DNA of 64,000 nucleotides from assembly GCF_014197205.1 (NCBI RefSeq), contig NZ_JACIFD010000005.1:1-64000 (forward strand). Direction: 5' to 3'. Origin of the DNA: Canibacter oris (GTDB lineage Bacteria > Actinomycetota > Actinomycetes > Actinomycetales > Microbacteriaceae). Below, piece after piece: positions 7,230 to 54,714 of the stretch. The notes under the pieces are model-generated. The model was given only the letters and a program-made list of their open reading frames with translations. It had not been told where the DNA came from and did not search any database. The stretch's first letter is position 1, and every line of letters begins with the position of its first letter. Made by a program: the position numbers and the translations under genes.

Positions 7230-8438
7230 TCACGCACTAAACTGTGACGCGTCCTGGTGTGTCTCGGTCTGCTCTTGGCGCGGCGCAGTGTCACGCGCAA
7301 TTGTGATTACTACCCCCATCGCCATGCAGCACGCCACCAGCGCAGTACCACCAGCGCTAACAAACGGCAATGGCACTCCCAAAACTGGCAACAGTCGCAA
7401 GACCACGGCGATGTTGATGAATGCCTGCCCGACGATCCACATCATGATGCCGCCTACAACCGCTTTCTGAAAGTAGTTTTTTGCCCTGGTAATAACCCGC
7501 AGCATCGCCCAGGCCAAAACAATGTAAGCTACAATAACCGCGAGACAGCCGAACAACCCCAATTCTTCGCCAATAATCGCAAAAATATAATCATCTTCCG
7601 CGGCTGGCAGCCAAGACCATTTTGCTTTGGAGCTGCCCAAACCGTTTCCGAAAACACCACCGCTAGAGAGCGCCCAGACACCGTGCAGCGGTTGCCAATC
7701 CAACCCAGAGTAATCAGTCTTGCTGTCTCCCCACAGACTCGCGATTCGATTTCTCCGGTTTTCACTGCTAATCACAAAAAGAAACGCGGCAAAAATTCCA
7801 GTAACCGCAAAAACAGCGATAGTGCGAAATTTAATCTCTCCAAACAGCAAACAGCCTAGCACCGCGAGTCCCAAAACCATGGCGGTGCCGAGATCTTTAC
7901 CCCACACGATAAGCCCCAAAGGGATACCCGCGAACAGCCCCAACGGGATGATTTCCTGCAGCAGCTTGCCACGAGGGGCTACCACCAGTCGTTGAATTAC
8001 AACGCCCAAAATCAAAATGGCACCGAGCTTCAGAAACTCCGAGGGCTGCACCTGCAGCGAGCCGATTCGCAACCAGTTACGGTTACCACCGTCGGCGACA
8101 CCCAGACCTGTAAAAACCACTGCGGATTGCAGCAGCACTCCACCGCCAAAAACGATCAGGGCAAAACGCATATACCAGTGAGGCTTTATGGCGCCGGCGA
8201 ACAGCATCGCAACAATTGCGACCAGGGCGTAACCAGCGTGGCGGAACCCCTCTCCCCAAGGTCCACGCTCAGCAAGATAAGAGTTCACGGAAGATGCCGA
8301 CATTACCATCAAAACGCCCAAACCAATAAGGCCCAAAGTGGCCGCAAATAGCCACACCGTAACCGCGTCTGCCTCGCGAATCGCGCGCAGTCGTAGGCCC
8401 TCACGCAGCGCTTTTACCGTGGCATTGGTTTTGCTCAT
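7230..8438 (-). CDS. ftsW: Septal peptidoglycan glycosyltransferase FtsW
   Basis: FtsW is the SEDS polymerase working with FtsI at the septum. The 402-residue polytopic protein has about ten membrane segments, the VMSASSVNSYLAERG stretch of TM1, NRNWLRIGSLQVQPSEFLKL (about 121-140), GKDLGTAMVLG and the C-terminal PLPFVSAGGTALVACC motif. Start supported by GGAGG upstream. It begins 3 bases after the stop of the MurD-like gene. The C-terminal tail is short and polar. Confidence 0.97.
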   Translation of the reverse strand: MSKTNATVKALREGLRLRAIREADAVTVWLFAATLGLIGLGVLMVMSASSVNSYLAERGPWGEGFRHAGYALVAIVAMLFAGAIKPHWYMRFALIVFGGGVLLQSAVVFTGLGVADGGNRNWLRIGSLQVQPSEFLKLGAILILGVVIQRLVVAPRGKLLQEIIPLGLFAGIPLGLIVWGKDLGTAMVLGLAVLGCLLFGEIKFRTIAVFAVTGIFAAFLFVISSENRRNRIASLWGDSKTDYSGLDWQPLHGVWALSSGGVFGNGLGSSKAKWSWLPAAEDDYIFAIIGEELGLFGCLAVIVAYIVLAWAMLRVITRAKNYFQKAVVGGIMMWIVGQAFINIAVVLRLLPVLGVPLPFVSAGGTALVACCMAMGVVITIARDTAPRQEQTETHQDASQFSA

Positions 8439-8441
8439 CTG

Positions 8442-9512
8442 TTATACCTCCGGCAGCTGGGTCAGCGCAGCAGCAATCGCGGCCGGTGACACTTCGCAAG
8501 CTCGCGCCAACGCCGCCGCTGCAAGGAAGTTCGCAACATCCTGTGGCGTTGCAAGATTGCGGCTGGCTAGTTCTGACAAAGTGGCAAGCTCTAAAGCGCT
8601 GTTGCGGCGTTCCGCATGGTAACCACGATCCGCCAACACATCTTCAACAAGACCAAGACCCGCGAGCGGCGGCGTGTCCAGCCCGAAACTAACGGCGCGG
8701 CAGCCCTCCGCGACATCCGCAGCCGCCAGCAGCTTTTCGGTTGCGAGGCTATGTCTGTTGTAAATACAGGCGAGCTTGGTGTTGGTGTAGACGTTGCCGT
8801 ATGGCTCCAGCTCAGTGGCCGGCGCAGCACTCGTAACGCCCGTGCTGTCCTCGGCGCCTGCAGCGTCCCCAGCACCGGCGGCAGCGTCCACGCTGAGCAG
8901 AGCGCTAGCAACCGGGTGAATACCATCCAGCAGTCGCAAATCCGCACCGCTGAGCCCCACCACAAAGAATTCAAACCGGGCTGGATCACGCACCGCATCG
9001 AGCACCGGCGGGGCGCTCAACCCAACCGGCGCCACCCGCCGCCCGGCCGCCAGCAGCATCCGTGCGGTAAGCTCTACGGTTGCAGCCACATCCTGCTGCC
9101 CGCTGACGCAAATCCACTGCGCCGCCACACCAAATTTGTCGCCCACATGCCATGCCAGCTCAATGTCGCTCCACACCGGCACTTGGGAGTTCTGCGCTGC
9201 CCGCAGCACCTCTGTCGCGCCGGGTTGCTCACTATCTGCAACCACAACCAGCTGCGGCGCGAAGGCGGCAAGCTGCGGCGCGATTTCCGTGATTTGCAGT
9301 TGTTTAAAGGTGGCGCCGATAACAGCCAGCAGCCGCTCTCGCTCTCCGCCGGGTTCCGGCGCCAAAACCAGCACCTCGGCGCCGAGCTCAGCGAGGGTAT
9401 CAGCAGCAGCGAAGCCCCGCTCGGAGACCCCGAAAACCGCAACTTTCACGCCGCTCCAGGCAGCGTTCCAGCTGGCTAGAGTGGCGGTCGTCGCAGAGTT
9501 ACGGATGCGCAT
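8442..9512 (-). CDS. MurD-like pseudoenzyme: lacks P-loop and C-terminal ligase domain
   Basis: The position between mraY and ftsW belongs to murD (UDP-MurNAc-L-Ala--D-Glu ligase, normally about 450-490 residues). This frame has 356. The N-terminal fold is recognisable ([22 protein letters not shown], residues 24-45, written here only as a family match) and so is the start of the central domain. However, the P-loop GTNGKTTT is replaced by SGQQDVAAT (137-145), followed by the expected VELTARML. The motif usually read ELSSFQLE is GLSGADLR (186-193), and the DHLDxH segment is a Gly/Ala-rich filler (208-225). The protein ends at LTQLPEV, where the family enters the D-Glu-binding domain. The frame overlaps mraY by 14 bases and ends 3 bases before ftsW, so there is no room for the missing part. 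Non-catalytic by inference. Confidence 0.85.
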
Positions 9513-10593
9513 TTGTCAGCACCCACTCCGCGTAAAACAGCGCGATTCCGATAATCACAAGCGCGCCTGACACAATCCAGAACCGCACTACAACGGTGAT
9601 TTCTTGCCAGCCTTTGAGCTCGAAATGGTGGTGAATCGGGCTCATCAGGAAGATTCGCCGCCCCTTTGTCACCTTAAAGTAGACGCGCTGCAGAATCACT
9701 GAGCCAGCCTCGATCAGGAACAGTCCGCCGATGAAAATTAGCAGCAACTCAGTGCGGGTCAGGATTGCGAAGGCAGCAACCGCACCGCCGATGCCCATCG
9801 ACCCGGTGTCACCCATGTAGAGCAGCGCCGGCGAGGTGTTCCACCACAAAAAACCGATTAGCGAACCAGCGAAGGCCGCAGCCACAACCGCGAGGTCGAG
9901 TGGATCACGCGCCACATAGCATGCCGCACCGCTGCTCGGATCAAGACAATTCTGGCTGAACTGCCAGAAAGAAATAACGCAGTAAGCCAGGAACACTAGA
10001 ATCGATGCGCCGCCGGCGAGCCCGTCGAGCCCGTCAGTGAGGTTCACCGCGTTTGAAGTGGCGGTGGTAATGAGGATAATCCAGGCGAGGAAAAGGATGG
10101 TGCCGGCCACAACGCCGAGCCGCAAAAAGTCAATATTGGTGTCGCGGAATAGCGAAATTGCGGTTGATGCCGGAGTGATGCCGTGCTCATTTGCAAAGTT
10201 AATGGCGAGCAGCCCGAAGCCGACGGCGACGGCCACCTGCCCCGCGATTTTTGCCCAACCACCGAGCCCCAGGGACTGTTGTTTCCGGGTTTTTAGAAAA
10301 TCATCGATGAAGCCGACAAGGCCGCAGCCCAGCGACAGCAAAAATACCAGCATCGCTGATGCGGTGATGCTGCCGCCGGTGAAAAGTTTTGCGCCGAAGT
10401 AGGCGACGACGGTGGCAAGCAGGAAAACCAGCCCGCCCATGGTTGGGGTGCCGCGCTTGGCGTAGTGGGTTTTAGGACCGTCTTCGCGAATAAACTGCCC
10501 CCACTCCAGGCGCACAAAGCCGCGCACAAAAAGCGGTGTGAGAAACAGCGAAAAAGCAAGCGCAATAATGCCCGCTACTACAACCTCGATCAT
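9499..10593 (-). CDS. mraY: Phospho-MurNAc-pentapeptide translocase MraY
   Basis: MraY moves phospho-MurNAc-pentapeptide onto undecaprenyl phosphate to give lipid I. The 364-residue polytopic protein has the conserved [17 protein letters not shown] (about 93-109), [15 protein letters not shown] with the catalytic Asp residues (about 185-199), [11 protein letters not shown] (about 255-265) and the [11 protein letters not shown] histidine motif near the C-terminus. About ten membrane segments. The start overlaps the murF stop by ATGA. All catalytic residues are present, so lipid I formation is expected. Confidence 0.98.
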
Positions 10594-19343: not shown

Positions 19344-21422
19344 GTGAACTCACCAGGCAGAGACCTTTTTCTGGGGCGCACTTTAGACGGGCGCTACCGA
19401 GTCCGCGCGCGCATCGCCCGCGGCGGTATGGGCATGGTGTATCTCGCGGATGATCTGCGTTTAGGCCGCAAAGTTGCGGTAAAAGCAATGCACCCGCACC
19501 TGGTTGATGACGAAAATTTTGTGCGCCGGTTTGGCCAGGAAGCAAAGGCTGCGGCGGGGCTTAACGATCAAAACGTGGTCAACGTGTTTGACCAGGGCGA
19601 AGAGCTCGGCGTCCCCTACCTGGTAATGGAATATATCCAAGGCGAGACGTTACGCGACGTATTGAAACAACAAAAGCGGCTCACCGCGGCGCAGGCTATA
19701 GAAATCAGCGAGGCGGTTTTGAAGGGGCTGGCGGCGGCGCACCGCGCCGGCTATATTCACCGTGATTTGAAACCCGAAAATGTTTTCTTGGCTGACGACG
19801 GCCGCATCAAAATCGGTGATTTTGGGCTGGCGCGCACGGCTGACAACCACACCACCACCAGCCAGGGCTTGATGGGCACGGTTGCTTATGTCGCTCCGGA
19901 ACTGGTCACGCGCGGCGCGGTTGCTGATGCCCGCAGCGACATCTATGCTTTCGGCGTGATGCTATACGAGATGCTGACCGGCACGCAGCCATTCCGTGCA
20001 GAGCAGCCTTACCAGGTGGCGATTATGCACACCCAAAAAGATGTGCCGCGGCCGTCAGATATTTCCCGGGAAGCAACACCGGAGCTTGACGAACTGGTCC
20101 GGTGGACAACTCTCCGCGACCCCGAAAAGCGCCCAAAAGACGCTGCTGTCGTGCTCGCCCGCCTCCACCAGCTGCTAGACGGCGGCCTCGATGCTGCTAC
20201 CAAAGTGATGGCTCCGGGCGCGGGCGCGGCGACCACGAAGCTTCCTAGCACCACCGTTTTGCGCGGGGTGGATCACGCCGCCGCAACCACTCACCTCGCA
20301 ACCACGACGGCGGCCGGGGCCGGTGTTGCCGGCGCGGGCACGCTCGGCGCTTCCGGCCCAGCAGCTGCCGCGGGTTTTAGCGGTGCCGGAGGCGTTGCCG
20401 GAGCTGGTTTCGCAGGCGGCAGCGGTGCCGCAGCCGCAGCTACGCCGCACGCAGCCGCGACAGAAACTAATCTTTCTGAAAACGCACTGGATAGAGCCCA
20501 GTATGCCGCCACGAAGCGTCACAAGCGAGGGCTTATCGCGGCCGCACTCATCACAGTTTTAACCCTTCTGGTGACGGGCGGAGCCTGGTGGTTTACGCAG
20601 GGCCCGGGCGCGCAGGTTGCAGTTCCAGATCTCACCGGCATGAGCCTGGAACAGGCGCAGCTGACACTCAGCGAAGCCGGGCTTGAGCCGCACCCGGAGC
20701 AGCGTGACTGCACCAGCCCGGATATTCCGGTGGGCGCGGTGGTGGAGTTTAAGCCTACTGCCGCGACCAGGGTCGAGCACGGCACCACAGTGCAGCTGTG
20801 CCTTTCAATCGGGCCAGCACAGCTGCCAGTCCCGGAGCTTGTCGGAGCTGACACTGAGACCGCTAAAACCCGCATCGCCACTGCCGGCTTCAGCTTCGGC
20901 AAGATTGTAGCGGAACGCTTTGATGCGGCCGAGCGCGGCACAGTTTTGGCTGCTCTCGACACCGATCACAATGTGCTCGGCGAAACCTATGCTGAGCGTG
21001 CGGCCATCAACCTGATCGTTTCTGCCGGGCCGCTGCCCGAGGTTTCCGGGTTGAACGCCGCTGATGTTGCGAGCGCTTTAAGCGCTGCGGGGTTGCGTCT
21101 TGACACCGCACTCAACGCGGAAGAGCACAGCGACACTGTACCCGTTGGCAAAGTGATTCGCTTGCAGCAGCAGAGCGAAACCCTGCAGGTGGGTGACGCG
21201 GTCGGTTTGGTGGTGTCACAAGGGCCGGAGTTGGTCACCCTGCCTAATCTAGAGGGTTTGCGCATGAATGAAGCCATCGCGCAGCTTGAAGAGCTGGGGC
21301 TCGTGGCAGAAACCGGGGTGCCCGGAGTGCTGCGTAACGCGGTGCGGGTCAATAGCATGTCCCCTGCCGCAGGTGAACAGGTGCCCAAAGGCTCCACCGT
21401 GAAGCTCGGCTTCGAACTCTAA
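19344..21422 (+). CDS. pknL: PknL-like Ser/Thr protein kinase with PASTA domains
   Basis: A 692-residue membrane kinase. The kinase domain (about 15-275) has the Gly loop IARGGMGMVYLA, catalytic Lys in VAVKAMHPHL, HRDLKPENVF, DFGLARTAD and VAPELV. A long Ala/Gly/Thr-rich juxtamembrane linker (about 285-390) leads to a membrane segment (GLIAAALITVLTLLVTGGAW, about 395-414) and four PASTA repeats of about 65 residues (from VPDLTGMSLEQAQ onward), which in this family sense muropeptides or lipid II. Start is GTG with a leaderless promoter. Gene order with the Rv2175c-like gene and aroG identifies it as the PknL orthologue; PknB is the alternative but is normally near rodA and pbpA. Confidence 0.92.
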   Translation: MNSPGRDLFLGRTLDGRYRVRARIARGGMGMVYLADDLRLGRKVAVKAMHPHLVDDENFVRRFGQEAKAAAGLNDQNVVNVFDQGEELGVPYLVMEYIQGETLRDVLKQQKRLTAAQAIEISEAVLKGLAAAHRAGYIHRDLKPENVFLADDGRIKIGDFGLARTADNHTTTSQGLMGTVAYVAPELVTRGAVADARSDIYAFGVMLYEMLTGTQPFRAEQPYQVAIMHTQKDVPRPSDISREATPELDELVRWTTLRDPEKRPKDAAVVLARLHQLLDGGLDAATKVMAPGAGAATTKLPSTTVLRGVDHAAATTHLATTTAAGAGVAGAGTLGASGPAAAAGFSGAGGVAGAGFAGGSGAAAAATPHAAATETNLSENALDRAQYAATKRHKRGLIAAALITVLTLLVTGGAWWFTQGPGAQVAVPDLTGMSLEQAQLTLSEAGLEPHPEQRDCTSPDIPVGAVVEFKPTAATRVEHGTTVQLCLSIGPAQLPVPELVGADTETAKTRIATAGFSFGKIVAERFDAAERGTVLAALDTDHNVLGETYAERAAINLIVSAGPLPEVSGLNAADVASALSAAGLRLDTALNAEEHSDTVPVGKVIRLQQQSETLQVGDAVGLVVSQGPELVTLPNLEGLRMNEAIAQLEELGLVAETGVPGVLRNAVRVNSMSPAAGEQVPKGSTVKLGFEL

Positions 21423-21442
21423 CCCACCGCCAAGAGCCCGCT

Positions 21443-22123
21443 TCAGGCAGCGACCTGCACCACCTGGTCAGCCGCCTCCAGAAAATCGGTATCATGTGTT
21501 GCCGCAATCACGATAGCACCAGCTTGCGCGGCAGCGCGCAGTAAGGCAACAATTTTTGCAGCGTTTTCTGCGTCTAGTGACGCGGTGGGTTCATCCACCA
21601 ACAGCATCTGTGGTTGCTGCAACATAGCCCTGGCAAATGCAATACGCTGCTGTTGGCCGCCAGAGAGGCGATACAACGGCTCATCTATTTTGTCTGAGAG
21701 TTCCACCAGCTCCAAAATCTGCTGTATCGATTCCGCTCGCCGAGCCCGACTGAGTTTTTTCACACCCGGCACCAGCGTCAGATTTTCTCGCACCGTCCAC
21801 TGCGCGATCAGTCCGAGCTGCTGCAAAATAAACGCAATATTGTGCCGGTACAGTCCCTGTTTCTGCCGCTGATTAAGGTCGTGCAACCTAATCTGCCCCC
21901 ACAAAATCTCACCTGCATCGATTTCATCCAGCATTCCGATGCAGTTAAGCAGAGTGGTTTTGCCAGAGCCCGACGCTCCGCGCAGCGCGGTTAATTGCCC
22001 AGGCTCAGCAACAAAATTCAAATCTCGCCACAGGTGTAAACCACCGAAATTTTTTGTGGCGTTTATAACCTCCACTGCAGCGGTTGCCGGCACCACAAAC
22101 TCATTTATCTTGATCATCATCAT
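21443..22123 (-). CDS. ABC transporter ATPase of lactococcin-972-type operon
   Basis: A 226-residue MacB/LolD-type ATPase: Walker A GASGSGKTTLLN (about 49-60), Q-loop near FILQQLGLIAQW, signature LSGGQQQRIAFARAM (about 158-172), Walker B MLLVDEPTASLD and the switch His in AATHDTDF. The ATG overlaps the stop of the membrane protein gene by ATGA, so the two form one transporter. In lactococcin 972 clusters such a pair gives immunity or export. Several ATG codons follow each other at the start (MMMIKI); any could be used. Confidence 0.92.
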   Translation of the reverse strand: MMMIKINEFVVPATAAVEVINATKNFGGLHLWRDLNFVAEPGQLTALRGASGSGKTTLLNCIGMLDEIDAGEILWGQIRLHDLNQRQKQGLYRHNIAFILQQLGLIAQWTVRENLTLVPGVKKLSRARRAESIQQILELVELSDKIDEPLYRLSGGQQQRIAFARAMLQQPQMLLVDEPTASLDAENAAKIVALLRAAAQAGAIVIAATHDTDFLEAADQVVQVAA

Positions 22124-24105
22124 TTCCTCAAATCGTAAACTATTTGCCGCGTTGCTTTTTCATATGCGACTGCGGCGAAAGCACCAATTCCCGCAAATCC
22201 GGCGAACATTCCTGTCAGTAACAGATATTCATGGGGTGTGGATCCACCCGCCAAAGTTTTTGCCGCAACTATCACGAACGCTGCAGCCACCGCCAGCACT
22301 CCAAAGAGCACCGCCAAATTTTCCACTGTGCGATACCCCAGGAGGTGACGCAGGGTGATTATTTTCCGGTTCTGCAAAACATAGCAAACGCTGTAACACA
22401 CCACCGCCAGGATTGATACCAATGTCAGCATCACCATCTGCTGATATCCCCTCGTGATTTCCTGTTCGGTTGCTAAAGCCGCGCCCTGGGCTTCCACTTG
22501 CGGCGAAGTGACTCGCAGCTCCATCTCTTGCAGCCCTGACTCGTTTATCGCCTGCTGCAGTTTCTCTGCGTCGCCGATAAATAAAAGGTTGCCGGTGGTA
22601 ACTGCCGAAAGTAGGCTATCACCCGAGAAATAGTTCGTATCCGCAGCCACGATCACTGGGTTTTCAAAGCTGTATGCTCCGACCAGTGTGGTGTGAAAAA
22701 TAGGCACTTCACCGGTTTCTTGGGGAGATAGCGTGATTGTTGGTGGGGCCACTGTCGCGCTACCTTCCAGCGCTATAAATTCAGCCTCAAACTGTAGCCT
22801 GCGGCTAACATAGTCGTGGATTTGCGCACTGTGCGATGCGAACATTTGCGGCACATACACCTTCACTTCACCACTTGTCGTGGTGGCAAGGTGCGGCTGA
22901 CTCGCTAGCTGCGCATACTCCCCCGCGACCCAAATACAATTTAGCCCAGGAACGATCTGCTCGCATTCTGCATCTGGTTGCGAATAAAGCACCCCGATGT
23001 CGTATTTTGTTGCGTTCACCACCAGATTTTTAATGTTTTGAAGCTGCTCGGTAAGCTGCGTTTCGTTCAGATAAGGCACAAATAGAGAGTTGATGTTTTG
23101 TTTGCCGTCCCAAATTTTTTGAGCCCGCAAGATAGTACTCTGCGCAGCAATGTGCTGCGCCGTAACGAGGCTGGTGTGAGTCGCTAGTATGCCTGCAAAC
23201 ACAAACGTCACAAGTGCGATGTTACGCAAGGCTCGATATGGCCGACGGTCTTTTAATCTTTCTACTAGGCTGTATCTGCTAGACCACACAATCATTTGCG
23301 AGACAATCATCGTGGCAACAATCAGCAGATAAAAAACTAGGCTGAATAAACTCAAATCCAGATACTGTTTCCAAACGTAGGCGCTCCTGTCATAGCCATT
23401 GCAAATGACGTTTACTAGCACATAGGCACCGGTTGCTAAACATGCCAACACGAGTGCCGCAAACGCATTGCCGCCCACATCTTTTGCAATGCTTTTAATT
23501 TTATTAACGCCAAGAATCTCTCTGCAGGACACAACCTGCATTTGTTTGCTGTAAACAACCGTTGCGCAGAGCATAACTCCCAGCAACGACACCAGCGGCG
23601 GAACCGCAAACTTAGGGTTTTGCCACAGCGCTGTTACGAGGTTCAGCTGCGGTAATGCTTCTATAGAAAAGTTTTGCTGCCGCAGCTCAGCAAGAAAATC
23701 TTGATAGTTTGCTTTTTCCCCATAGAAAACCCAAATTCCGATGTCCCGCAAAGCTTCCTCGCTCTGCTTTATTGTGAATAAATTATCGCCGTATTTGTAG
23801 TCTTGATACTCTTGTGCGCTCGCAGCTTGCCCTGGAGCAAATACAACCTCTACCTCGGTGTAGTCTGCTTGCCGCACAAAATTCTTTTTCGCCCCAACTA
23901 AATTATGTTTGGTCGCTAGTGCAGTTACTTCTCCATAACTGTTTTCACCGCTGGCCGTGTCGATGACAGTCACGCTACCGACAGCACCAAACGGGGTATT
24001 TTGAGCCAAACTAGTGGACCCAAAATACCCCGTCTGCAGAGCAACAAACAAGCTAAATGCTGTGAACACCCAAAGCACTAGCTGAAATTTGCCACTTCGG
24101 AACAT
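22120..24105 (-). CDS. Bacteriocin-associated membrane protein (lactococcin 972 immunity/permease type)
   Basis: A 661-residue polytopic protein. Membrane segments: one near the N-terminus (about 8-27), a group of three at about 165-295 (including PPLVSLLGVMLCATVVYS and LSLFSLVFYLLIVATMIVSQMI with short gaps), one near 295-315, and a C-terminal group from about 545 to 645. Large outside loops lie between residues 30-160 and 320-540. A SLVERLKDRRPYRALRN cytoplasmic segment follows the fourth helix. Topology, length and position next to a lactococcin-972-like peptide and an ATPase match the bacteriocin-associated integral membrane family. The DNA is visibly richer in A+T than the dcw genes, suggesting acquisition. 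Confidence 0.82.
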   Translation of the reverse strand: MFRSGKFQLVLWVFTAFSLFVALQTGYFGSTSLAQNTPFGAVGSVTVIDTASGENSYGEVTALATKHNLVGAKKNFVRQADYTEVEVVFAPGQAASAQEYQDYKYGDNLFTIKQSEEALRDIGIWVFYGEKANYQDFLAELRQQNFSIEALPQLNLVTALWQNPKFAVPPLVSLLGVMLCATVVYSKQMQVVSCREILGVNKIKSIAKDVGGNAFAALVLACLATGAYVLVNVICNGYDRSAYVWKQYLDLSLFSLVFYLLIVATMIVSQMIVWSSRYSLVERLKDRRPYRALRNIALVTFVFAGILATHTSLVTAQHIAAQSTILRAQKIWDGKQNINSLFVPYLNETQLTEQLQNIKNLVVNATKYDIGVLYSQPDAECEQIVPGLNCIWVAGEYAQLASQPHLATTTSGEVKVYVPQMFASHSAQIHDYVSRRLQFEAEFIALEGSATVAPPTITLSPQETGEVPIFHTTLVGAYSFENPVIVAADTNYFSGDSLLSAVTTGNLLFIGDAEKLQQAINESGLQEMELRVTSPQVEAQGAALATEQEITRGYQQMVMLTLVSILAVVCYSVCYVLQNRKIITLRHLLGYRTVENLAVLFGVLAVAAAFVIVAAKTLAGGSTPHEYLLLTGMFAGFAGIGAFAAVAYEKATRQIVYDLRK

Positions 24106-24123
24106 CTATAGACCTTCCGTGAA

Positions 24124-24429
24124 TCAATAGACTCGGTAATATGCTTGGTCAGTTTTAAACCAACCAGTGCAGCCATCATATCGCGTAGCGTGTGACCAAT
24201 GTCCTGGGCCAACATTCGGGCTTCGCGTTAGGCTGCCGTGACAATTCCGAACACTAGACCCATGGCTGCGCGTTGAATGATAATAATTAGACCAAATCGT
24301 TGAAGAATCAACTCCGTAATCCCATGTTCCGCCCTCGGCTGGGTAAGTTACTACTGCATTCGCCGCAGCAGCACCCGCGAAGACCAAACCAACGCTGACC
24401 AATACGGTTGGAATCATTTTCTTGTTCAT
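24124..24429 (-). CDS. Lactococcin-972-like bacteriocin precursor
   Basis: A 101-residue secreted peptide precursor. Residues 1-25 form a Sec signal peptide (MNKKM, hydrophobic core, AAANA cleavage site). The mature 76 residues have the lactococcin 972 family pattern: EGGTWDYGV (32-40), WSNYYHSTRSHGSSV (46-60) and an aromatic C-terminus QAYYRVY. Two Cys (63 and 87) could form a disulfide, which lactococcin 972 does not have. Lactococcin 972 binds lipid II and blocks septum formation in lactococci; whether this peptide does is inference. Start supported by AGAGGAG 6 bases upstream. First gene of the operon with the membrane protein and ATPase. Confidence 0.85.
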   Translation of the reverse strand: MNKKMIPTVLVSVGLVFAGAAAANAVVTYPAEGGTWDYGVDSSTIWSNYYHSTRSHGSSVRNCHGSLTRSPNVGPGHWSHATRYDGCTGWFKTDQAYYRVY

Positions 24430-24469
24430 AATATTCTCCTCTGAATATCATGTTTATCGGGTAACTTAG

Positions 24470-24497
24470 AAAATACCCCCCCCTAACATCATGTCAA
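24470..24497 (-). promoter_or_regulatory. Bacteriocin promoter with G8 tract in the spacer
   Basis: On the coding strand TTGACA (24492-24497) and TATTTT (24470-24475) are separated by 16 bases that end in eight consecutive G (24476-24483). The start codon is 41 bases after the -10 element. Slippage in the G tract would change spacer length between good and poor values. Confidence 0.65.
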
Positions 24498-24582
24498 TAA
24501 GGAAAATAAAAATTTATATTTTCGTAATATTAGCTTCCGCTGCAGCCAGGGCGTTTATCCGAAAATATATAAGCATTCCCAC

Positions 24583-25929
24583 CTACCGCTGGCGCAGCTC
24601 CTCGGCCACCTGGAAGGCAAGCTCCAGTGACTGCATGTGGTTCAGGCGTGGATCGCACAGTGACTCGTAACGCGTTGCGAGCGCCGCTTCGTCAATCTGC
24701 GCTGCCCCGCCGAGGCACTCGGTGACATCGTCACCGGTAAGCTCGACGTGAATACCGCCCGGCACAGTGCCAGCCGCGCGATGCGCTTCGAAGAAACCTT
24801 TAACCTCGTCCATCACGTCTTCAAAACGGCGGGTCTTATAGCCAGTGGAGCTGGTGATCCCGTTGCCGTGCATCGGGTCAGTAACCCATACCGGGCTAAT
24901 GCCAGCGGCTTTTACACCCTCCAGCAGTGGCGGCAGCACCTCGCGGATCTTATTCGCCCCCATCCGGGTGATCAGCGTCAAACGGCCTGGTTCCCGCTCC
25001 GGGTCGAGTTTCTCAATCAGTGCCAGGGTGTCGGCCACGGTAGTTGTCGGCCCAAGCTTTACCCCAATCGGGTTAGCAACCTGTGACAGGTAATGTACGT
25101 GAGCCCCGTTGATATCGCGGGTGCGCTCGCCGATCCACAAAAAGTGTGCCGAAGTATCATACAGTTTGCCGGTGCGACTGTCGATGCGGGTCAGCGGCCG
25201 CTCGTAGTCTAGCAGCAGCGCCTCGTGGCCGACAAAGAAATCAGTGCGGCTCATCGCCGAAAAGTCAGCGCCGCAAGCGAGCATAAACTCCACCGCCCGA
25301 TCGATTTCGCGAGTCAGCGCCCGGTACCGCTCGTTTGCTGGGTTCTCAGCGAAGCCCTTGTTCCACTCATGTACCTTGCGCAGGTCAGCAAAACCACCCT
25401 GGGTGAATGCCCGAATTAGGTTCAGGGTTGCGGTGGACACGTTGTAGCCTTGCATTAGGCGGTGCGGATCAGCCGCCCGCGTAGCGGCGGTGAAGTCGTA
25501 ACCGTTTACGAGATCGCCGCGGTAGGCAGGCAGGGTCTGCCCGTCGCGGGTTTCTACATCGCTGGAGCGTGGCTTCGCGAACTGCCCGGCCATCCGCCCC
25601 ATTTTCACGACTGGGGTGGAAGCGCCGTAGGTCAGCACCAGTGCCATCTGCAGCACGGTTTTTACCCGGTCTCGAATCTTATCTGCGGTGGCCCCGGCGA
25701 AGGTTTCTGCGCAATCACCGCCCTGCAGCAGGAAAGCTTCGCCACGCGCCACGGCAGCAAGTTTTTCTTTAAATTTGTCTGCCTCACCCGCAAACACCAG
25801 CGGTGGCTGCGCCGCGAGCTCACCGCGCACCTTGCCAAGCACCACAGCATCAGGCCAGTTTGGCTGCTGTTTCGCTTCCAGCTCCTGGTATTTGTCGAGC
25901 TCAGCGTACAGATTCTGCTGTTCAGCCAT
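24583..25929 (-). CDS. aroG: Class II 3-deoxy-7-phosphoheptulonate synthase
   Basis: DAHP synthase condenses PEP and erythrose 4-phosphate, the first step of aromatic amino acid synthesis. The 448-residue type II enzyme has FLLQGGDCAETFAG (about 62-75), VVKMGRMAGQFAKPRSS (about 107-123), PAYRGDLVNGYDF, the NPANERYRALTREIDRAVEFM region, WIGERTRD, DPMHGNGI and HVELTGDDVTECLGG (metal and substrate residues). M. tuberculosis aroG (Rv2178c) sits at the same place relative to pknL. The bacteriocin operon lies between the two genes here. Confidence 0.97.
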   Translation of the reverse strand: MAEQQNLYAELDKYQELEAKQQPNWPDAVVLGKVRGELAAQPPLVFAGEADKFKEKLAAVARGEAFLLQGGDCAETFAGATADKIRDRVKTVLQMALVLTYGASTPVVKMGRMAGQFAKPRSSDVETRDGQTLPAYRGDLVNGYDFTAATRAADPHRLMQGYNVSTATLNLIRAFTQGGFADLRKVHEWNKGFAENPANERYRALTREIDRAVEFMLACGADFSAMSRTDFFVGHEALLLDYERPLTRIDSRTGKLYDTSAHFLWIGERTRDINGAHVHYLSQVANPIGVKLGPTTTVADTLALIEKLDPEREPGRLTLITRMGANKIREVLPPLLEGVKAAGISPVWVTDPMHGNGITSSTGYKTRRFEDVMDEVKGFFEAHRAAGTVPGGIHVELTGDDVTECLGGAAQIDEAALATRYESLCDPRLNHMQSLELAFQVAEELRQR

Positions 25930-38774: not shown

Positions 38775-38820
38775 TTTTCTGTGCTGTGTTGTTGTTGCCT
38801 GTATATGCGTGTATACACAC

Positions 38821-38863
38821 AAAAAAGAAGAGGGGGCTGCTCCATCACAGAGCAACCCCCTCT
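38821..38863 (-). terminator. rRNA operon terminator, copy 1
   Basis: On the minus strand AGAGGGGG and GAGCA pair with their complements around a 7-base loop (38829-38863, one internal mismatch), followed by CTTCTTTTTTG. Placed just after 5S rRNA. Confidence 0.88.
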
Positions 38864-38877
38864 TTTTTAATTTTTAT

Positions 38878-38995
38878 TGCGGCGGTGTCCTACTCTCCCA
38901 CACCCTCCCGAGTGCAGTACCATCGGCGCTGTCAGCCTTAGCTTCCGGGTTCGGAATGTGACCGGGCGTTTCCCTGACGCTATAACCACCGCAAA
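38878..38995 (-). rRNA. rrf: 5S rRNA, copy 1
   Basis: About 118 bases reading GCGGTGGTTATAGCGTCAGG at the 5' end, CCGAACCCGGAAGCTAAG in the middle and GTAGGACACCGCCGC at the 3' end, all standard for actinobacterial 5S. Ends pair with each other (helix I). Exact ends are estimates. Confidence 0.95.
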
Positions 38996-39162
38996 CCTAT
39001 AAACCACCAACAACCAGCCGGTCCACGAAACATGAACTGGTTGCCGTGTTGTGGCCACGCACAAACTTGTACGTTCGAAACCACAAAGCAGACGCGAACA
39101 TCGTTACACTTACATGACTCTCTATCTCCCACCCGTTAACAGGATCACCTGCCAGGGTTGGG

Positions 39163-44258
<5,096 letters not shown>

Positions 44259-44505
44259 AAACAAAACAGCACCACCCAGCCGGAATAAGACCAGGCAGCA
44301 CCAGAGTTCAATCCAAGCAAACGATTCTGACATCATATCCAGAATTGTCCACCAAAAAAAAGGAATCCAAACCAACCAAAAGGCCAGTTACGAGGATAAA
44401 AATAATTTGGCATTTAACAATCAAGTGCACACTATTGAGTTCTCAAAGACCAGACAAGCCCCGTACCCGCACCAACCAAGGCACCTCCGAAACCCGCAGG
44501 AAAAC
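44259..44505 (-). promoter_or_regulatory. rRNA leader shared by both operons
   Basis: 247 bases between the 16S 5' end and the edge of the repeat, shared with copy 2 apart from one G. The element TTTGAGAACTCAATAGTGTG on the minus strand is typical of actinobacterial rRNA leaders. Upstream of 44505 the two operons have unrelated sequence, so their distal promoters must differ. Confidence 0.6.
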
Positions 44506-44748: not shown

Positions 44749-46176
44749 ATGTCTCAGGTATTGCGAGCATTAGGCACCGCAGTGGCAGGATGCATGATAA
44801 TCGCCACCACAGCGTGCACAACGCACACCACTGCAAGCGATGCTAATGTCACCACCACGGCGACGCAGCAGCAAGCTGCGGGAGGCGGATCCACCACCCC
44901 ACATACCGCGAACCCATTCGACAGCCTGTATCCTGCAGATTTCCGACTACAGCCACTTGGCAAGGTCACTGCAGCCGCAGCACAGCCCCCAGCGAAAGCC
45001 ACCGGCCTCACTGACGGCATCACAGATGCGACACATCACACCCTGGTGTTCCGCGCCACCGCAGGCGCAGACACCGCACCGCACAGCACACGAATAAGAC
45101 ACGAGTATTCTCGCCGGCAGGCTTTCAACGCCGATAGCAGCCACTATCTGGCGCAGAACAATCGCGGCGAATGGTATCTCTACGACGCGGTCACTTTTGA
45201 AAATCTTGGTCGCATCCCTCAGCTAACCGGTGATGCAGAGCCGTTATGGCATCCGCATGACCCCAACATACTGTGGCACACAGCGCGCAACGGCGGCACA
45301 TCCTGGATGAGTCTAGACGTCAGCACCGGTGCGGAGCAAAAGCTGCTTGACCTTAGTGAGCTGTCACCGTGGCCGCAAGCCACTGCCTACTGGACAGGTG
45401 GAGAGGGATCAGCCAGCGCCGATGGCGGCATTCTCACGCTAATGGCGACAAGCTACGACAGCCAGGCGCAGCGGGTCACTGTGCACGGAGTGCTCACGGT
45501 CGATGTCAAACAACAAAAACTTGTGGGCTCTCTTGCTGCTGCCAGTTTCCCCACACCGCATGCAGTGCCGGATCACGTCAGCACCGCTCCCAGCGGTAAA
45601 TACGCGGTCGTGTCATGGCTTGCAGAGCACGGCGGCACAGTCGCATACAGCACTGATTTTAAAGAGACGCAGCAGCTCACACAAAGCTCCGAACACTCTG
45701 ATCTCGCGCTGGGGCCAGCGCAGGAAGATTTCTTCGTATACGCCGACTATCAGGCTGGCGCAATCACAGCTCGCAACATCACTTCCGGCGAAAGTTTTAG
45801 TATCAGGTCGCTGTATCCGGCACCCGGCGAGGCATATGCGGTGCACATTAGCGGGCAAGCATTTGGGCGCCCTGGCTGGGTGCTGATTTCAACCTACGCA
45901 GCGACGCGCGATTACGGCGCAGCAGCCGCACCTGATAATTCACAGGCAGAGTACGGGCGCATCTGGTTAGCTGAGCTGCAAGCGAACGGTCAACAGCTTA
46001 CGGTAGCAAATACGATGGTGGATCACACCAAAGTACCGGAGACTGAAGCATATTTTGCCGAGCCACAGGCCTCTATTTCACGTGACGGCAGTCGGATTAT
46101 TTTCGCCAGCAACTACGGCGGCGCGGAAATTAACAGCTACATAATTGGTTTACCCAGCTCGGTGTATTCACGTTAA
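44749..46176 (+). CDS. Putative lipoprotein, beta-propeller-like, unknown function
   Basis: A 475-residue exported protein. The N-terminus has a signal segment (VLRALGTAVAGCMIIATTAC, residues 4-23) with Cys23 in a lipobox-like TTAC context; the next residues are Thr/Gln/Ala-rich. The rest has repeated short strands with Trp and Asp-Gly turns (NRGEWYLYDAVTFENLG, DISRDG-like ISRDGSRIIFASN near the end), reminiscent of WD40/TolB-type propellers, but I do not recognise a family. No start-proximal ribosome site; a TAGGCT element suggests a leaderless transcript. It ends converging with the permease gene, the two stops overlapping. Lies between the two rRNA operons. Confidence 0.75.
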   Translation: MSQVLRALGTAVAGCMIIATTACTTHTTASDANVTTTATQQQAAGGGSTTPHTANPFDSLYPADFRLQPLGKVTAAAAQPPAKATGLTDGITDATHHTLVFRATAGADTAPHSTRIRHEYSRRQAFNADSSHYLAQNNRGEWYLYDAVTFENLGRIPQLTGDAEPLWHPHDPNILWHTARNGGTSWMSLDVSTGAEQKLLDLSELSPWPQATAYWTGGEGSASADGGILTLMATSYDSQAQRVTVHGVLTVDVKQQKLVGSLAAASFPTPHAVPDHVSTAPSGKYAVVSWLAEHGGTVAYSTDFKETQQLTQSSEHSDLALGPAQEDFFVYADYQAGAITARNITSGESFSIRSLYPAPGEAYAVHISGQAFGRPGWVLISTYAATRDYGAAAAPDNSQAEYGRIWLAELQANGQQLTVANTMVDHTKVPETEAYFAEPQASISRDGSRIIFASNYGGAEINSYIIGLPSSVYSR

Positions 46177-48821
46177 TACTGTTCGAGCTGCTGCGGTTTT
46201 AATTGCGATATCCTGTTTATCAGCATTAGAACCCACGCAAACCAGCACACCGCCAAGGTAACGAGAGACGTTGCATCAGGCTGATACCAATGCTTTAACG
46301 CCAACAGCAGTGCGGCGATAGCAACACTCGCTGCTATCATCTGGACACTGGCCACCACCAACAACCGCAACATTATGCTTCTAACCGACTGCCCTAAATA
46401 CATGTAAAAGAACCGCACTCGCAGAAACAATATCTGCCGCAAGTTTTGATTACTGAATAACTGCAGACCTAGCATTAAGCAAAGCACCCCGCTAGCCAGA
46501 AAAGCGACCGGCAACAGCGCTTGCAGTACTGCATTTGACAGTGACATGGTTGCGCCTACGCTCCATAGCCATCTGGCTAGCTGCGCTAAGATTGCTGCAA
46601 TCACTGCTGCAACTGCACAAACCGCTGTTTCTAAAACAAGCAAAAAGAAAATCTTTCTTCTGCTGCAAAGTACGTTAGCTGCGGGAGTTAAAACAGCAGG
46701 TTTCATGGGAACACTGCCCAAAACTAACAAAATAATGAGACAGCTCAGCGCAATCACCGCGCCCTGCTGAGCAGCTGTAGCTAGACAAATACTTGCCACA
46801 ATACCAGCAGCTATCACAACCACCCCAGGAAAAACCTCGCTGAGACCCCATCTCAAACGTCGACCAAACGACCATCCCAGGCTGCGCAGCAAGCTTTGCT
46901 GCCGTAAACGCTGTGGCCGCACCGACACGATTACGATGCTCAGCCCCAATAGCAAAATCACAAACAAACTATTACTCACCCAATAGGCGACTTCACTGAT
47001 TGTACTGGAGGTCCAATTATCTGATCCAGTGACTGTAAAGTTTTGTGTTACCCAACCCAAATCAGCAACTGTTTGATTCTGCAGCGGATCGGTCACTCCG
47101 AAAGCATAATCAGGCACATAAATATCGATGCTTTGTGTGCTGCTGCCGCTGACCACCATTGCACCGAACCCTAATGACCTAATTTGGTTCGCCACCAGAT
47201 CTATCTGTAGCTGTGCTGCTTCGCGGGTTAGATTGTCTAAACCGGCAACTTTTATACGCACAGCAGTAACGTAGTCATCGGGGGTGAATTTCTTAGCTGA
47301 ATCCAGTGATACTATCACATGAGGAGCGGACACCCCCAGTCCGGTACCTAACCGGTTAGTTTCCAAAACTGCACCATTCTCTAAAGTAATCGCAGCACCG
47401 TCATATAACCCAAGAGGCGCCTGCAGTGCCAGTTTTTTTAATGCTTCGCGGTCAAAGACTCCGGCTTCAAACGGTGCTGCGCCGTTTTTCTGCGGCGTTC
47501 CTATTTGTAGTTCACGCGGCGTAGTTTCACGGTATTTTGTGGTTTCTCCCGGAATTCTGCCTGTCGGTGAATAATTTGGAAGCTCAAACACCCCCGCGTT
47601 GAATCCATGAGGGATCACCCTAAAGGCGGTTTTTTCGTCGTCTTTTGTATATTGCTGCAGTTCTAACCCACTGATTGATACCGCATCATACTTGTTAACT
47701 ACGGTGTACCCTAAACCTGGAATATCAGTTGTCTCTTGCCCTGGCCAATCTGCTTGTAATTTAAAAACGCTAAAAGGGCGTGCGATTTTTTGTAAATCGA
47801 CTTCAGTAGATCCTACTTCCAAGAGTGCGGCTGCGCCCTGCTCTTGCAGTTGACTAATACTGATGGTCATTCTTTGTGGCGCCAGAGCGTCTTCATATCT
47901 CAGATACGGCACAAGGTCAGAATTTGCACCAAAGAAACCCCATACTGCGGGCGCGTTTTCAAAATCTCGTAATCCCGGATAGTGCAGGAATTCGGGCGGC
48001 AAGATATCGCTTTCTGCGGGAATTAGAGAGGCTATTTTCGTAGCGTTAAGACCCTCTAAATCTGTTATTAGCTTTTCAGCCTGCTGCAAAGGTTGCAAAA
48101 AGCTGGCTGCTTCTCCCAAAAGGTCCATTTCCGCCTCGGGATCCACGGCTACGATGCTGGTGTGAGAAAGCAGCACCGGATATAAAGCAACATAAAGACC
48201 TTGCGGCGTTATAGCACTATCGCTGTACTTGATTGTGCTGCCTGGGTATGATACAACAATTCCGTGTTCTGACGCGGATTGCGGCACAGCTGTTTCACCT
48301 AATACACCGTCCCAATTTGCTAAATCTATTTCAACTAGAACATCTGTTGCATAATCTAAACGCCAGCTAACCCCGTCGTGCGATTTACTAGCGATTTCAA
48401 AGGTGAGCCCAATACGCTGTGCTGGCTGAAGCACCTCCCACGGAATTATGATGCCCAGCCATTTTTCTGTTCCTATCTGTGAGCCAAGGTATCCTACCGG
48501 GGCTACGGTCGCAATTTCCGGAATACTGCGCAACTGCTCGATTTGCCGCTCTGAGAGTGTGGGTGCTACTACTGCGCCGTAATTATTTTCCACCAGCGGC
48601 AAACCTAAATCATTGTTTGCAGGGGAAACCTCGGCCACAAAATCAGGATGCGTTACCAGAATGTCATACTCACCACGCCAGTTATTGTCTATGATATCTG
48701 CCGCAACGCTCTCTGTAGCCCGCCCCAGTAAGAGCACTGTCGGAAACATCACACCGACTATCAACAAAGCAACATTAAGGAGCCAAAGCTGTTTAGGGAA
48801 TACGCCCATACCCCCCCTCAT
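46173..48821 (-). CDS. Large FtsX-like permease with big extracellular region
   Basis: An 882-residue membrane protein: one N-terminal membrane segment (about residues 10-32), an outside region of about 580 residues, then membrane segments near 618-636, 660-710 (two), 730-755, 770-795, 820-840 and 850-870. The cytoplasmic RQQSLLRSLGWSFGRRLRWG after the second helix is typical of FtsX/MacB-type permeases. No ATPase gene is adjacent, so a partner must be encoded elsewhere. The DNA is AT-richer than the dcw genes. Start: ATG 48821, or ATG 48809 four codons on; a run of seven G lies between them, so the choice is open. Confidence 0.78.
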   Translation of the reverse strand: MRGGMGVFPKQLWLLNVALLIVGVMFPTVLLLGRATESVAADIIDNNWRGEYDILVTHPDFVAEVSPANNDLGLPLVENNYGAVVAPTLSERQIEQLRSIPEIATVAPVGYLGSQIGTEKWLGIIIPWEVLQPAQRIGLTFEIASKSHDGVSWRLDYATDVLVEIDLANWDGVLGETAVPQSASEHGIVVSYPGSTIKYSDSAITPQGLYVALYPVLLSHTSIVAVDPEAEMDLLGEAASFLQPLQQAEKLITDLEGLNATKIASLIPAESDILPPEFLHYPGLRDFENAPAVWGFFGANSDLVPYLRYEDALAPQRMTISISQLQEQGAAALLEVGSTEVDLQKIARPFSVFKLQADWPGQETTDIPGLGYTVVNKYDAVSISGLELQQYTKDDEKTAFRVIPHGFNAGVFELPNYSPTGRIPGETTKYRETTPRELQIGTPQKNGAAPFEAGVFDREALKKLALQAPLGLYDGAAITLENGAVLETNRLGTGLGVSAPHVIVSLDSAKKFTPDDYVTAVRIKVAGLDNLTREAAQLQIDLVANQIRSLGFGAMVVSGSSTQSIDIYVPDYAFGVTDPLQNQTVADLGWVTQNFTVTGSDNWTSSTISEVAYWVSNSLFVILLLGLSIVIVSVRPQRLRQQSLLRSLGWSFGRRLRWGLSEVFPGVVVIAAGIVASICLATAAQQGAVIALSCLIILLVLGSVPMKPAVLTPAANVLCSRRKIFFLLVLETAVCAVAAVIAAILAQLARWLWSVGATMSLSNAVLQALLPVAFLASGVLCLMLGLQLFSNQNLRQILFLRVRFFYMYLGQSVRSIMLRLLVVASVQMIAASVAIAALLLALKHWYQPDATSLVTLAVCWFAWVLMLINRISQLKPQQLEQY

Positions 48822-48984: not shown

Positions 48985-49030
48985 TTTTCTGTGCTGTGTT
49001 GTTGTTGCCTGTATATGCGTGTATACACAC

Positions 49031-49073
49031 AAAAAAGAAGAGGGGGCTGCTCCATCACAGAGCAACCCCCTCT
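49031..49073 (-). terminator. rRNA operon terminator, copy 2
   Basis: Same hairpin and T-run as copy 1 (38821-38863), placed after the second 5S gene. Confidence 0.88.
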
Positions 49074-49087
49074 TTTTTAATTTTTAT

Positions 49088-49205
49088 TGCGGCGGTGTCC
49101 TACTCTCCCACACCCTCCCGAGTGCAGTACCATCGGCGCTGTCAGCCTTAGCTTCCGGGTTCGGAATGTGACCGGGCGTTTCCCTGACGCTATAACCACC
49201 GCAAA
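49088..49205 (-). rRNA. rrf: 5S rRNA, copy 2
   Basis: Identical to the copy at 38878-38995 by direct reading. Ends estimated. Confidence 0.95.
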
Positions 49206-49372
49206 CCTATAAACCACCAACAACCAGCCGGTCCACGAAACATGAACTGGTTGCCGTGTTGTGGCCACGCACAAACTTGTACGTTCGAAACCACAAAGCA
49301 GACGCGAACATCGTTACACTTACATGACTCTCTATCTCCCACCCGTTAACAGGATCACCTGCCAGGGTTGGG

Positions 49373-54468
<5,096 letters not shown>

Positions 54469-54714
54469 AAACAAAACAGCACCACCCAGCCGGAATAAGA
54501 CCAGGCAGCACCAGAGTTCAATCCAAGCAAACGATTCTGACATCATATCCAGAATTGTCCACCAAAAAAAAGAATCCAAACCAACCAAAAGGCCAGTTAC
54601 GAGGATAAAAATAATTTGGCATTTAACAATCAAGTGCACACTATTGAGTTCTCAAAGACCAGACAAGCCCCGTACCCGCACCAACCAAGGCACCTCCGAA
54701 ACCCGCAGGAAAAC

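Follow-up and report, generated by a model that had tools for sequence, protein, structure and literature searches.

A lactococcin 972-type bacteriocin operon between a Ser/Thr kinase gene and aroG in Canibacter oris

Overview of the operon

Analysis of a 64,000-nucleotide stretch of Canibacter oris DNA (contig NZ_JACIFD010000005.1, positions 1 to 64,000, hereafter the window) identified a locus that is quite probably a complete lactococcin 972-type operon, encoding a Sec-exported, lipid II-binding bacteriocin with an ABC transporter that protects the producer. The gene order was found to be bacteriocin, integral membrane protein and ABC ATPase, with all three genes intact, in agreement with the known three-gene layout recognized in the preliminary description of this DNA. 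The operon type is already known: lactococcin 972 (Lcn972) is described as an unmodified, lipid II-binding bacteriocin, and what the two accompanying genes do is termed unverified (PMC11796350). The present member is set apart by a cysteine placement shared by no sampled relative and by the most isolated permease among those compared.

The bacteriocin gene (lcn) and the permease gene are separated by 18 bp, and the ATPase gene begins 4 bp inside the end of the permease gene, which suggests that the three genes lie on one transcript. A ribosome-binding-site-like GGAG (24436..24439, minus strand) was found 6 nt before the lcn ATG. A sigma-70-like promoter candidate, TTGACA-16-TATTTT (24470..24497, minus strand), was located 40 nt upstream of lcn by consensus scan (10/12 matches), this being weak evidence because the region contained six such sites, where shuffled sequences averaged 2.9 (sd 1.6). 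No regulator was identified at the locus, both neighbours being a kinase gene and aroG, and Rfam models at gathering thresholds matched only rRNAs within the window.

The bacteriocin precursor and its predicted fold

The lcn gene (24124..24429, minus strand) encodes a 101-residue precursor that is a member of the lactococcin 972 family. A family profile search, proposed as a check in the preliminary description, placed it above the cut-offs of both PF09683 (51.2 bits, cut-off 22) and TIGR01653 (44.9 bits, cut-off 32.1), with no PF09683 match being found in any of 14 control genomes. The EGGTWDYG, SNYYH and HGSSV features, by which a signal-peptide-bearing precursor of this length had been recognized, were all present and align to the solved structures 9hkj and 2lgn. 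The precursor also keeps the core residues that are invariant across an 18-row alignment. Residues 1-25 (24355..24429, minus strand) form a predicted Sec signal peptide, with a basic start, a hydrophobic stretch and A-N-A, its Sec-typical appearance having been judged by eye inspection only. The leader of Lcn972 is likewise reported to be 25 residues long (PMC4289311).

The predicted mature bacteriocin of approximately 76 residues (24124..24354, minus strand) has seven strands in an AF2 model with a pLDDT of 83-97 over residues 31-101. The closest solved sequences were Formosin D (9hkj, E 7.8e-7) and Lcn972 (2lgn, E 9.3e-4), the latter score being by sequence no better than that of an unrelated flagellar chain (9.3e-4 vs 1e-3). 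Foldseek searching with the peptide model returned 9hkj at 4.6e-4 (TM 0.70 by target) and 2lgn at 2.6e-3 (TM 0.74 by target), both with a probability of 1.00 and the following row at 0.31. The modelled fold matches that of both solved members of the family, Formosin D and Lcn972.

Formosin D (PDB 9HKJ, 'Lactococcin 972 family bacteriocin', released 2025-12-17) was the best solved match by both sequence and fold, with 32% identity to the window peptide in the structural alignment. No paper on it was found among the matches listed for that word. Lcn972 of Lactococcus lactis IPLA 972 (PDB 2LGN) has in common with the window peptide a leader-bearing precursor, the fold and the GTW...SNY.H...H motifs, although the sequence match spans approximately 50 residues only. 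Its operon, like that of the window, includes a putative ABC transporter encoded by two genes, but is borne on plasmid pBL1, whereas that of the window is chromosomal.

The cysteine pair

The two cysteines of the window peptide were placed by the AF2 model in the loop after strand 56-61 (Cys63, codon at 24241..24243, minus strand) and in the loop after strand 77-84 (Cys87, codon at 24169..24171, minus strand), and probably form a disulfide in the mature bacteriocin. The preliminary description was correct that these cysteines are not found in Lcn972, and the Lcn972 residues aligned to the window peptide contain none. The pair as such is not distinctive, with exactly two cysteines being found in 57 of the 81 sampled family peptides (the window peptide counted in) at several distinct placements. 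It is the C63/C87 placement that was seen in the window peptide alone among these 81. In this census the L040 peptide was entered with three cysteines, its full ORF having one more just upstream of the counted stretch.

A frequent placement among family peptides is a cysteine pair at H-1 and the C-terminus, which suggests that strand 56-61 pairs with strand 95-100. If it does, residues 63 and 87 would, by inference only, lie at the other end of that strand pair. One reading, given somewhat less than even odds, is that the lactococcin 972 fold has repeatedly been closed by a single disulfide at differing positions, to which the window adds the unique Cys63-Cys87 pair and a private permease. If true, the fold would have a shared weak point that the disulfide staple makes good, with staple position and permease both changing as toxin specificity changes. 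Lcn972 is termed metastable in the title of a cited work. Cysteine-based RiPP modification was also considered and was dropped because neither neighbouring gene (kinase, aroG) encodes a modifying enzyme of that kind.

The permease and ATPase

The permease gene (22120..24105, minus strand) encodes a 661-residue protein with eight predicted TM helices and outer domains at approximately residues 41-155 and 339-533. Its sole NCBIfam match at E 1 was TIGR01654 (bact_immun_7tm), at 45.5 bits and below the cut-off of 189.35, so that it is related to this family but not filed as a member. The cut-off was likewise missed by all four other actinobacterial operon permeases tested, one of which had no match at E 1e-5, and was passed by the single Bacillota permease tested (270.5). 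A literature search on the TIGR01654 name gave only unrelated items among the matches listed. The '7-TM type membrane protein' of the preliminary description is indeed a membrane protein and second in order, but '7-TM' is the family name and eight helices are predicted. The hydropathy count depends on the threshold, a stricter one giving seven in several relatives and another giving eight in the window permease and that of L027.

The AF2 model of the permease was of moderate confidence (mean pLDDT 71.3, with residues 77-116 mostly below 50). The order of its elements was found to be a TM helix, an outer domain and three TM helices, twice over, with the ATPase as a separate protein. Fold matches were obtained to YbbAP (9ge7, Foldseek 4.1e-8, VIA-align Z 18.9), to BceAB (8g4c, Foldseek 1.1e-4; 8s5g, VIA-align Z 18.7) and to MacB. 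The ATPase gene (21443..22123, minus strand; 226 aa), noted earlier as following the membrane protein gene, was confirmed by an ABC_tran match of 111.4 bits. Its best NCBIfam model was TIGR03608 (L_ocin_972_ABC) at 193.2 bits, below the cut-off of 254.85, which the operon ATPases of L027 (161.9) and L059 (172.1) also failed and that of L067 (298.2) passed. By modelled fold, the permease and ATPase would form a type VII (MacB/BceAB-like) ABC transporter. BceAB and YbbAP are of the same fold class as the window permease, which has eight predicted helices and two outer domains, compared with the 10 helices of BceB and YbbP. The shared transporter fold does not by itself establish function.

The order of lcn, fused permease and ATPase is shared by other loci, among them 13 of 39 in one survey. 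A split layout of peptide, ATPase and a permease of three to four helices was found in 14 of the 39, with L028 and L042 adding a one-helix protein of approximately 350 aa.

Proposed mode of action and immunity

We infer a mode of action in which the precursor would be exported by Sec with removal of the 25-residue leader, releasing a beta-sandwich protein of approximately 76 residues that is probably closed by Cys63-Cys87. This protein would most likely kill related Gram-positive bacteria by binding their lipid II and blocking septal wall synthesis as Lcn972 does, this being by analogy, as the lipid II evidence concerns Lcn972 in the sources as cited (PMC11796350, PMC4055356). The permease and ATPase would most likely protect the producer by using ATP to strip the bacteriocin from lipid II on the outer side of the membrane, with no part in export. 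Because the toxin carries its own Sec-like signal, immunity through such release of lipid II is the most probable role of the ABC pair. For mediterrocin it has been argued that no ABC exporter is needed where a Sec-type leader is present (PMC12345188), and Lactococcus strains with the cloned Lcn972 cluster are reported to have MICs of 800-1600 AU/mL compared with 12.5 AU/mL for the host (PMC4055356).

The ABC pair could instead be a dedicated exporter or maturation system for the bacteriocin, with immunity encoded elsewhere; NCBIfam labels the family to which the ATPase is closest 'putative bacteriocin export ABC transporter'. The split-layout loci recall MacAB efflux pumps, and MacB appears among the permease fold matches. 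This is considered unlikely: the precursor has its Sec-like leader, a Pfam domain search of the ATPase gave no match to a leader-peptidase domain, and the best fold matches of the fused permease are to YbbAP and BceAB.

Insertion site and flanking genes

The operon lies in an island of 3,160 bp (21423..24582) between the stop of a PASTA Ser/Thr kinase gene (the pknL of the preliminary description; 19344..21422, plus strand; NF033483, 523 bits) and the stop of aroG, encoding a class II DAHP synthase (24583..25929, minus strand; TIGR01358, 667 bits), both matches being above cut-off. As had been proposed, these two genes are close in relatives, with intervals of 6, 150, 194 and 7 bp in four congeners. 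The site was empty in all four, and none of these genomes had a PF09683 match. The island was also confirmed to be AT-richer, with operon genes at GC 0.490-0.527 and GC3 0.422-0.564 compared with averages of GC 0.576 (sd 0.034) and GC3 0.626 (sd 0.057) for a baseline of 41 crudely called window ORFs of at least 150 aa, which includes the two larger genes of the operon. Insertion of the operon between the kinase gene and aroG, previously called likely, is therefore well supported, and horizontal acquisition is most likely.

The neighbourhood of a division gene region was borne out by a scan of 10 proteins at about 2.0-16.4 kb of the window, in which ftsZ, murC, mraY, murF and rsmH passed their models, ftsQ, murG, ftsW and an ftsI-like gene gave sub-cut-off matches, and one protein had no match at E 1e-30. 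This closeness follows from the conserved place of the kinase gene and aroG, and no functional meaning of it could be demonstrated.

The same closeness bears on the idea that the peptide is directed chiefly at the producer or sister cells rather than being a cross-species weapon, and serves to retain the island through post-segregational killing or to regulate growth or division. Plasmid stabilisation by post-segregational killing has been tested for the Lcn972 cluster (PMC4055356), and streptococcin B is reported to act within the species (PMC11796350). Against the idea, congeners have the kinase-aroG site without the operon, and a second complete operon of this type is present in the same genome, on another contig by lepB/rnhB. 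The idea is given a still lower likelihood than the export role, although it overlaps and is compatible with the favoured reading of a secreted bacteriocin with dedicated immunity.

Second operon, relatives and distribution

Recent duplication between the two operons of this genome was rejected because their peptides stand apart in the tree and BLASTP gave no significant match between their permeases (best E 0.071). The window peptide falls in an unresolved fork, where the nearest by path is that of Cellulosimicrobium, while the second peptide groups with those of Rothia nasimurium (100/87) and an Actinomycetales MAG (99/95).

The nearest peptide in the tree, from Cellulosimicrobium cellulans PW (L050), is encoded in the same gene order and is 45% identical over the precursor and 53% over 72 residues. 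Its cysteines are at H+15 and the C-terminus, unlike C63/C87, and its permease shows no significant BLASTP similarity to that of the window (E 0.53). The window is therefore a compact case of a toxin core 53% identical to that of another genus alongside a permease without significant pairwise similarity. Such operons would be informative on immunity and its specificity, and the relatives, in which nature has set cysteines at a range of positions on the same fold, on what limits fold stability.

The window permease was the most isolated of the 45 distinct permeases compared. Its nearest relatives, L145 and L146 (49.7 and 48.1 bits; 24% over 237 residues at 49.7 bits), are included in that number and come from two genomes that belong to a different family within the order, with ATPases 41% identical to that of the window. 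The L145 peptide is distant (34.7%, E 0.010), and none was found at L146 with the profile used in this analysis.

The host is an actinobacterium with a small genome. Members of the bacteriocin family are not rare in Microbacteriaceae, being found in 43 of 398 genomes, and the island was present in one of five searched genomes of the genus. Such a restricted, AT-rich island with so isolated a permease could be the silent remnant of a bacteriocin locus in decay. This is the least probable of the explanations considered and is very doubtful, as the three ORFs are intact, GGAG precedes lcn, the permease stop and ATPase start are coupled and the invariant residues of the peptide core are kept. A broken locus looks otherwise, the permease of L055 being in three pieces.

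Loci of the same kind, for streptococcin B (scbABC) and mediterrocin, have reported antibacterial activity (PMC11796350, PMC12345188). These are from Bacillota and have regulators in or beside the locus, whereas the neighbours of the window operon are the Ser/Thr kinase gene and aroG. No relative of the permease was found to be encoded in plasmid or phage records, and viral contigs gave no match to either the peptide alignment or the permease. A relative of the peptide was identified on one plasmid, from Arthrobacter alpinus (40% over 70% of the query).

Genetic organization and probable insertion site of the bacteriocin operon

The island between the PASTA kinase gene pknL (plus strand, ending at 21422) and the class II DAHP synthase gene aroG (minus strand, stop at 24583) was found to be filled by three minus-strand ORFs, encoding a lactococcin 972-type precursor of 101 residues (lcn, 24429-24124), a permease of 661 residues (24105-22120) and an ABC ATPase of 226 residues (22123-21443). 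The order of precursor, membrane protein and ABC ATPase is the lactococcin 972 layout that the preliminary description had claimed. As lcn is followed by the permease gene after 18 bp and the permease and ATPase genes overlap by 4 bp, the three are likely to share one transcript. A GGAG motif is situated 6 nt 5' of the lcn start, with a statistically weak TTGACA-16-TATTTT site 40 nt upstream of lcn.

Assignment of the precursor to the lactococcin 972 family was confirmed by profile search, with the cut-offs of both PF09683 (51.2 bits against 22) and TIGR01653 (44.9 bits against 32.1) exceeded. Its top sequence matches among solved chains were 9hkj (7.8e-7) and lactococcin 972 itself (Lcn972, 2lgn; 9.3e-4), but the three others up to E 1 were all derived from unrelated proteins, and since the first of these already appeared at 0.001, the 2lgn match is weak by sequence alone. 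Foldseek comparison using an AlphaFold model of the precursor, built with 17 relatives (block confidences 83-97 for residues 31-101), placed 9hkj Formosin D first (4.6e-4) and 2lgn second (2.6e-3), with the next at 0.31. Among the papers listed for Formosin, none concerned a bacteriocin. The operon looks intact and belongs, as an ordinary case, to a known kind of bacteriocin locus, its activity being predicted; what is unusual in it is the cysteine placement and a permease that is the most isolated among those compared, and a second operon in the genome, in all likelihood a separate gain, was not expected.

The kinase and DAHP synthase genes are adjacent in all four congeners examined (tblastn), with intervals by ORF ends of 6 bp (G001), 150 bp (G002), 7 bp (G004) and 194 bp (G003, whose kinase is cut by a contig end), compared to 3,160 bp in the window, and PF09683 had no match in these four genomes. 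This comparison bore out the proposed insertion between pknL and aroG, and the island genes are, as described, AT-richer than the window's mean. Division and cell-wall genes do lie at 2.0-16.4 kb of the window, so that the operon's reported location beside them holds; however, this closeness is taken as a property of the insertion site, because the kinase-aroG junction is common to the genus. The kinase adjoining aroG in G004 (locus L046, 2155-3519) has only 454 aa and offers no match to the window kinase beyond residue 304 (PASTA repeats); the PASTA repeat number may vary within the genus.

Distribution and a second operon in the same genome

With the window's own genome included each time, PF09683 occurred in 2 of 40 near relatives, 43 of 398 Microbacteriaceae genomes and 13 of 394 genomes of the class. 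Forty loci were fetched, the peptide being present in 39. By crude ORF calls, 13 of these 39 possess a fused permease (at least 650 aa) with an ATPase, 14 have a split layout of peptide, ATPase and then a 3-4-helix permease of approximately 350-390 aa (e.g. L112, L120, L126, L128 and L130), and 12 are ambiguous or incomplete. One genome (G316) had five PF09683 matches in two places, with three lcn972-type genes in tandem before one permease in one of its loci (L036, 7730-8677).

Two PF09683 matches were identified in the window's genome, the other belonging to a complete lactococcin 972-type set (locus L027, G000:C8:59501-79500, at 7247-10285) of peptide (10285-9992), permease with eight hydrophobic stretches (9912-7888) and ATPase (7891-7247), followed downstream by a GNAT gene and then lepB and rnhB. 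The latter two are adjacent in all four congeners, where no match to the second peptide or permease was found at E 1e-3 in stretches of 7.1-13 kb around them; a single weak match to the second ATPase (31.6%) in G003 was on the opposite side of rnhB. In the peptide tree, the second peptide grouped with those of Rothia nasimurium (100/87) and an Actinomycetales MAG (99/95), with the window peptide outside that group. As the two peptides stand apart in the tree and the second peptide and permease were not matched around lepB-rnhB in the congeners, separate gain of the two operons is most likely. Upstream of the second operon, at a distance of approximately 3 kb, are genes for a LuxR-type response regulator and a histidine kinase (L027 13126-14821); putative surface-protein ORFs occupy the intervening DNA.

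Permease and ATPase

The sole named NCBIfam match of the window permease was TIGR01654, at 45.5 bits far below the cut-off of 189.35. Among five permeases scanned as controls from other lcn972-type operons, the four from actinobacteria also failed (L059 49.0, L050 42.8, L037 33.7, and L027 without a match at E 1e-5), while that of Kroppenstedtia passed (270.5); the cut-off therefore seems to be fitted to Bacillota, five permeases being a small sample. The permease had been described as a 7-TM type membrane protein; it is a membrane protein, but hydropathy predicts eight helices. Its AlphaFold model (mean pLDDT 71.3) repeats twice a unit of one helix, an outer domain and three helices. Foldseek ranked Escherichia coli YbbAP (4.1e-8) and BceAB (1.1e-4) closest, then LolCDE and MacB, and VIA-align gave Z 18.9 to YbbAP (375 residues, 5.4 A) and 18.7 to BceABS (424 residues, 8.2 A); an unrelated protein of long helices reached Z 10.0 in that list. 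The model is interpreted as having the fold of a type VII ABC transporter. Lipid-cycle intermediates are released from bacitracin by BceAB, and by analogy with this similar fold, target protection is the favoured mechanism by which the window permease and ATPase would provide immunity.

The window peptide shares 53% identity over 72 residues with that of Cellulosimicrobium cellulans PW (L050), whereas their permeases have no significant BLASTP similarity (E 0.53). This mismatch is not unique, as permeases lie above E 1e-5 in 62 of the 282 peptide pairs (near-copies included) that are at least 40% identical over at least 50 residues. It would result from an immunity side that changes faster, and likewise from an exchange of permeases between operons. 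When 51 entries (45 distinct permeases) were compared by the score to their nearest counterpart, the window permease ranked lowest with 49.7 bits (L146, from another family of the order), and the next lowest had 57.4. Among 396 genomes of the order, it was matched outside its own genome in three only (22-31% identity).

Cysteine placement across the family

The census comprised 84 non-redundant peptides including that of the window, with one further ORF lacking the anchor; 81 were counted after exclusion of L055 (broken), L064 (frame lost) and a second L068 ORF. The latter is an odd lcn972-like ORF that follows the ATPase of the Corynebacterium uropygiale operon (L068 2446-5858) and has a C-terminal part unlike the family; with positions numbered from the H of HGSSV, its cysteines are H+14 and H+42. 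Twenty peptides had no cysteine, one had one, 57 had two, two had three and one had four. Odd counts numbered three, whereas 10,000 draws with the overall frequency kept constant averaged 38.8 and never gave fewer than 21; this statistic overstates the case as related sequences are not independent. Cysteine pairs are the rule among these 81 peptides, which are mostly actinobacterial; of the six Bacillota rows, four had no cysteine, one had one and one had two. The window peptide does carry the pair noted as a contrast with lactococcin 972, but possession of two cysteines does not distinguish it within the family.

The placements were H-1 with the C-terminus (23 peptides), H+5 with H+9 to H+14 (26, of which one has a third cysteine), H+14/15 with the C-terminus (six), around H-11 with H+33 (three, two with further cysteines) and others (two). 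The window's H+7 and H+31 (Cys63, Cys87) occurred in its peptide only, and the second operon's pair is H+5/H+10. The peptide tree required at least 15 changes among placement labels, where the fewest possible is six; as it is based on 81 columns with many open forks and cysteine columns retained, we claim only that several placements exist, leaving the number of origins unclaimed. No title on this series was present among the matches listed in the lactococcin 972 cysteine and disulfide literature. According to PMC12532748, a cysteine-free relative retained its activity through 30 min at 70 C, an argument against any need of a disulfide for stability; Lcn972 itself is there called thermosensitive.

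Other features of the window

Two rRNA operons (38775-44362 and 48985-54572) are identical 5,588-bp copies in direct orientation on one contig, with a distance of 10,210 bp between them. The stretch separating these operons contains two ORFs, neither with a Pfam match at E 0.01: one of 882 aa on the minus strand (46173-48821, GC 0.484) and one of 475 aa on the plus strand (44749-46176), which overlaps the former by 4 bp.
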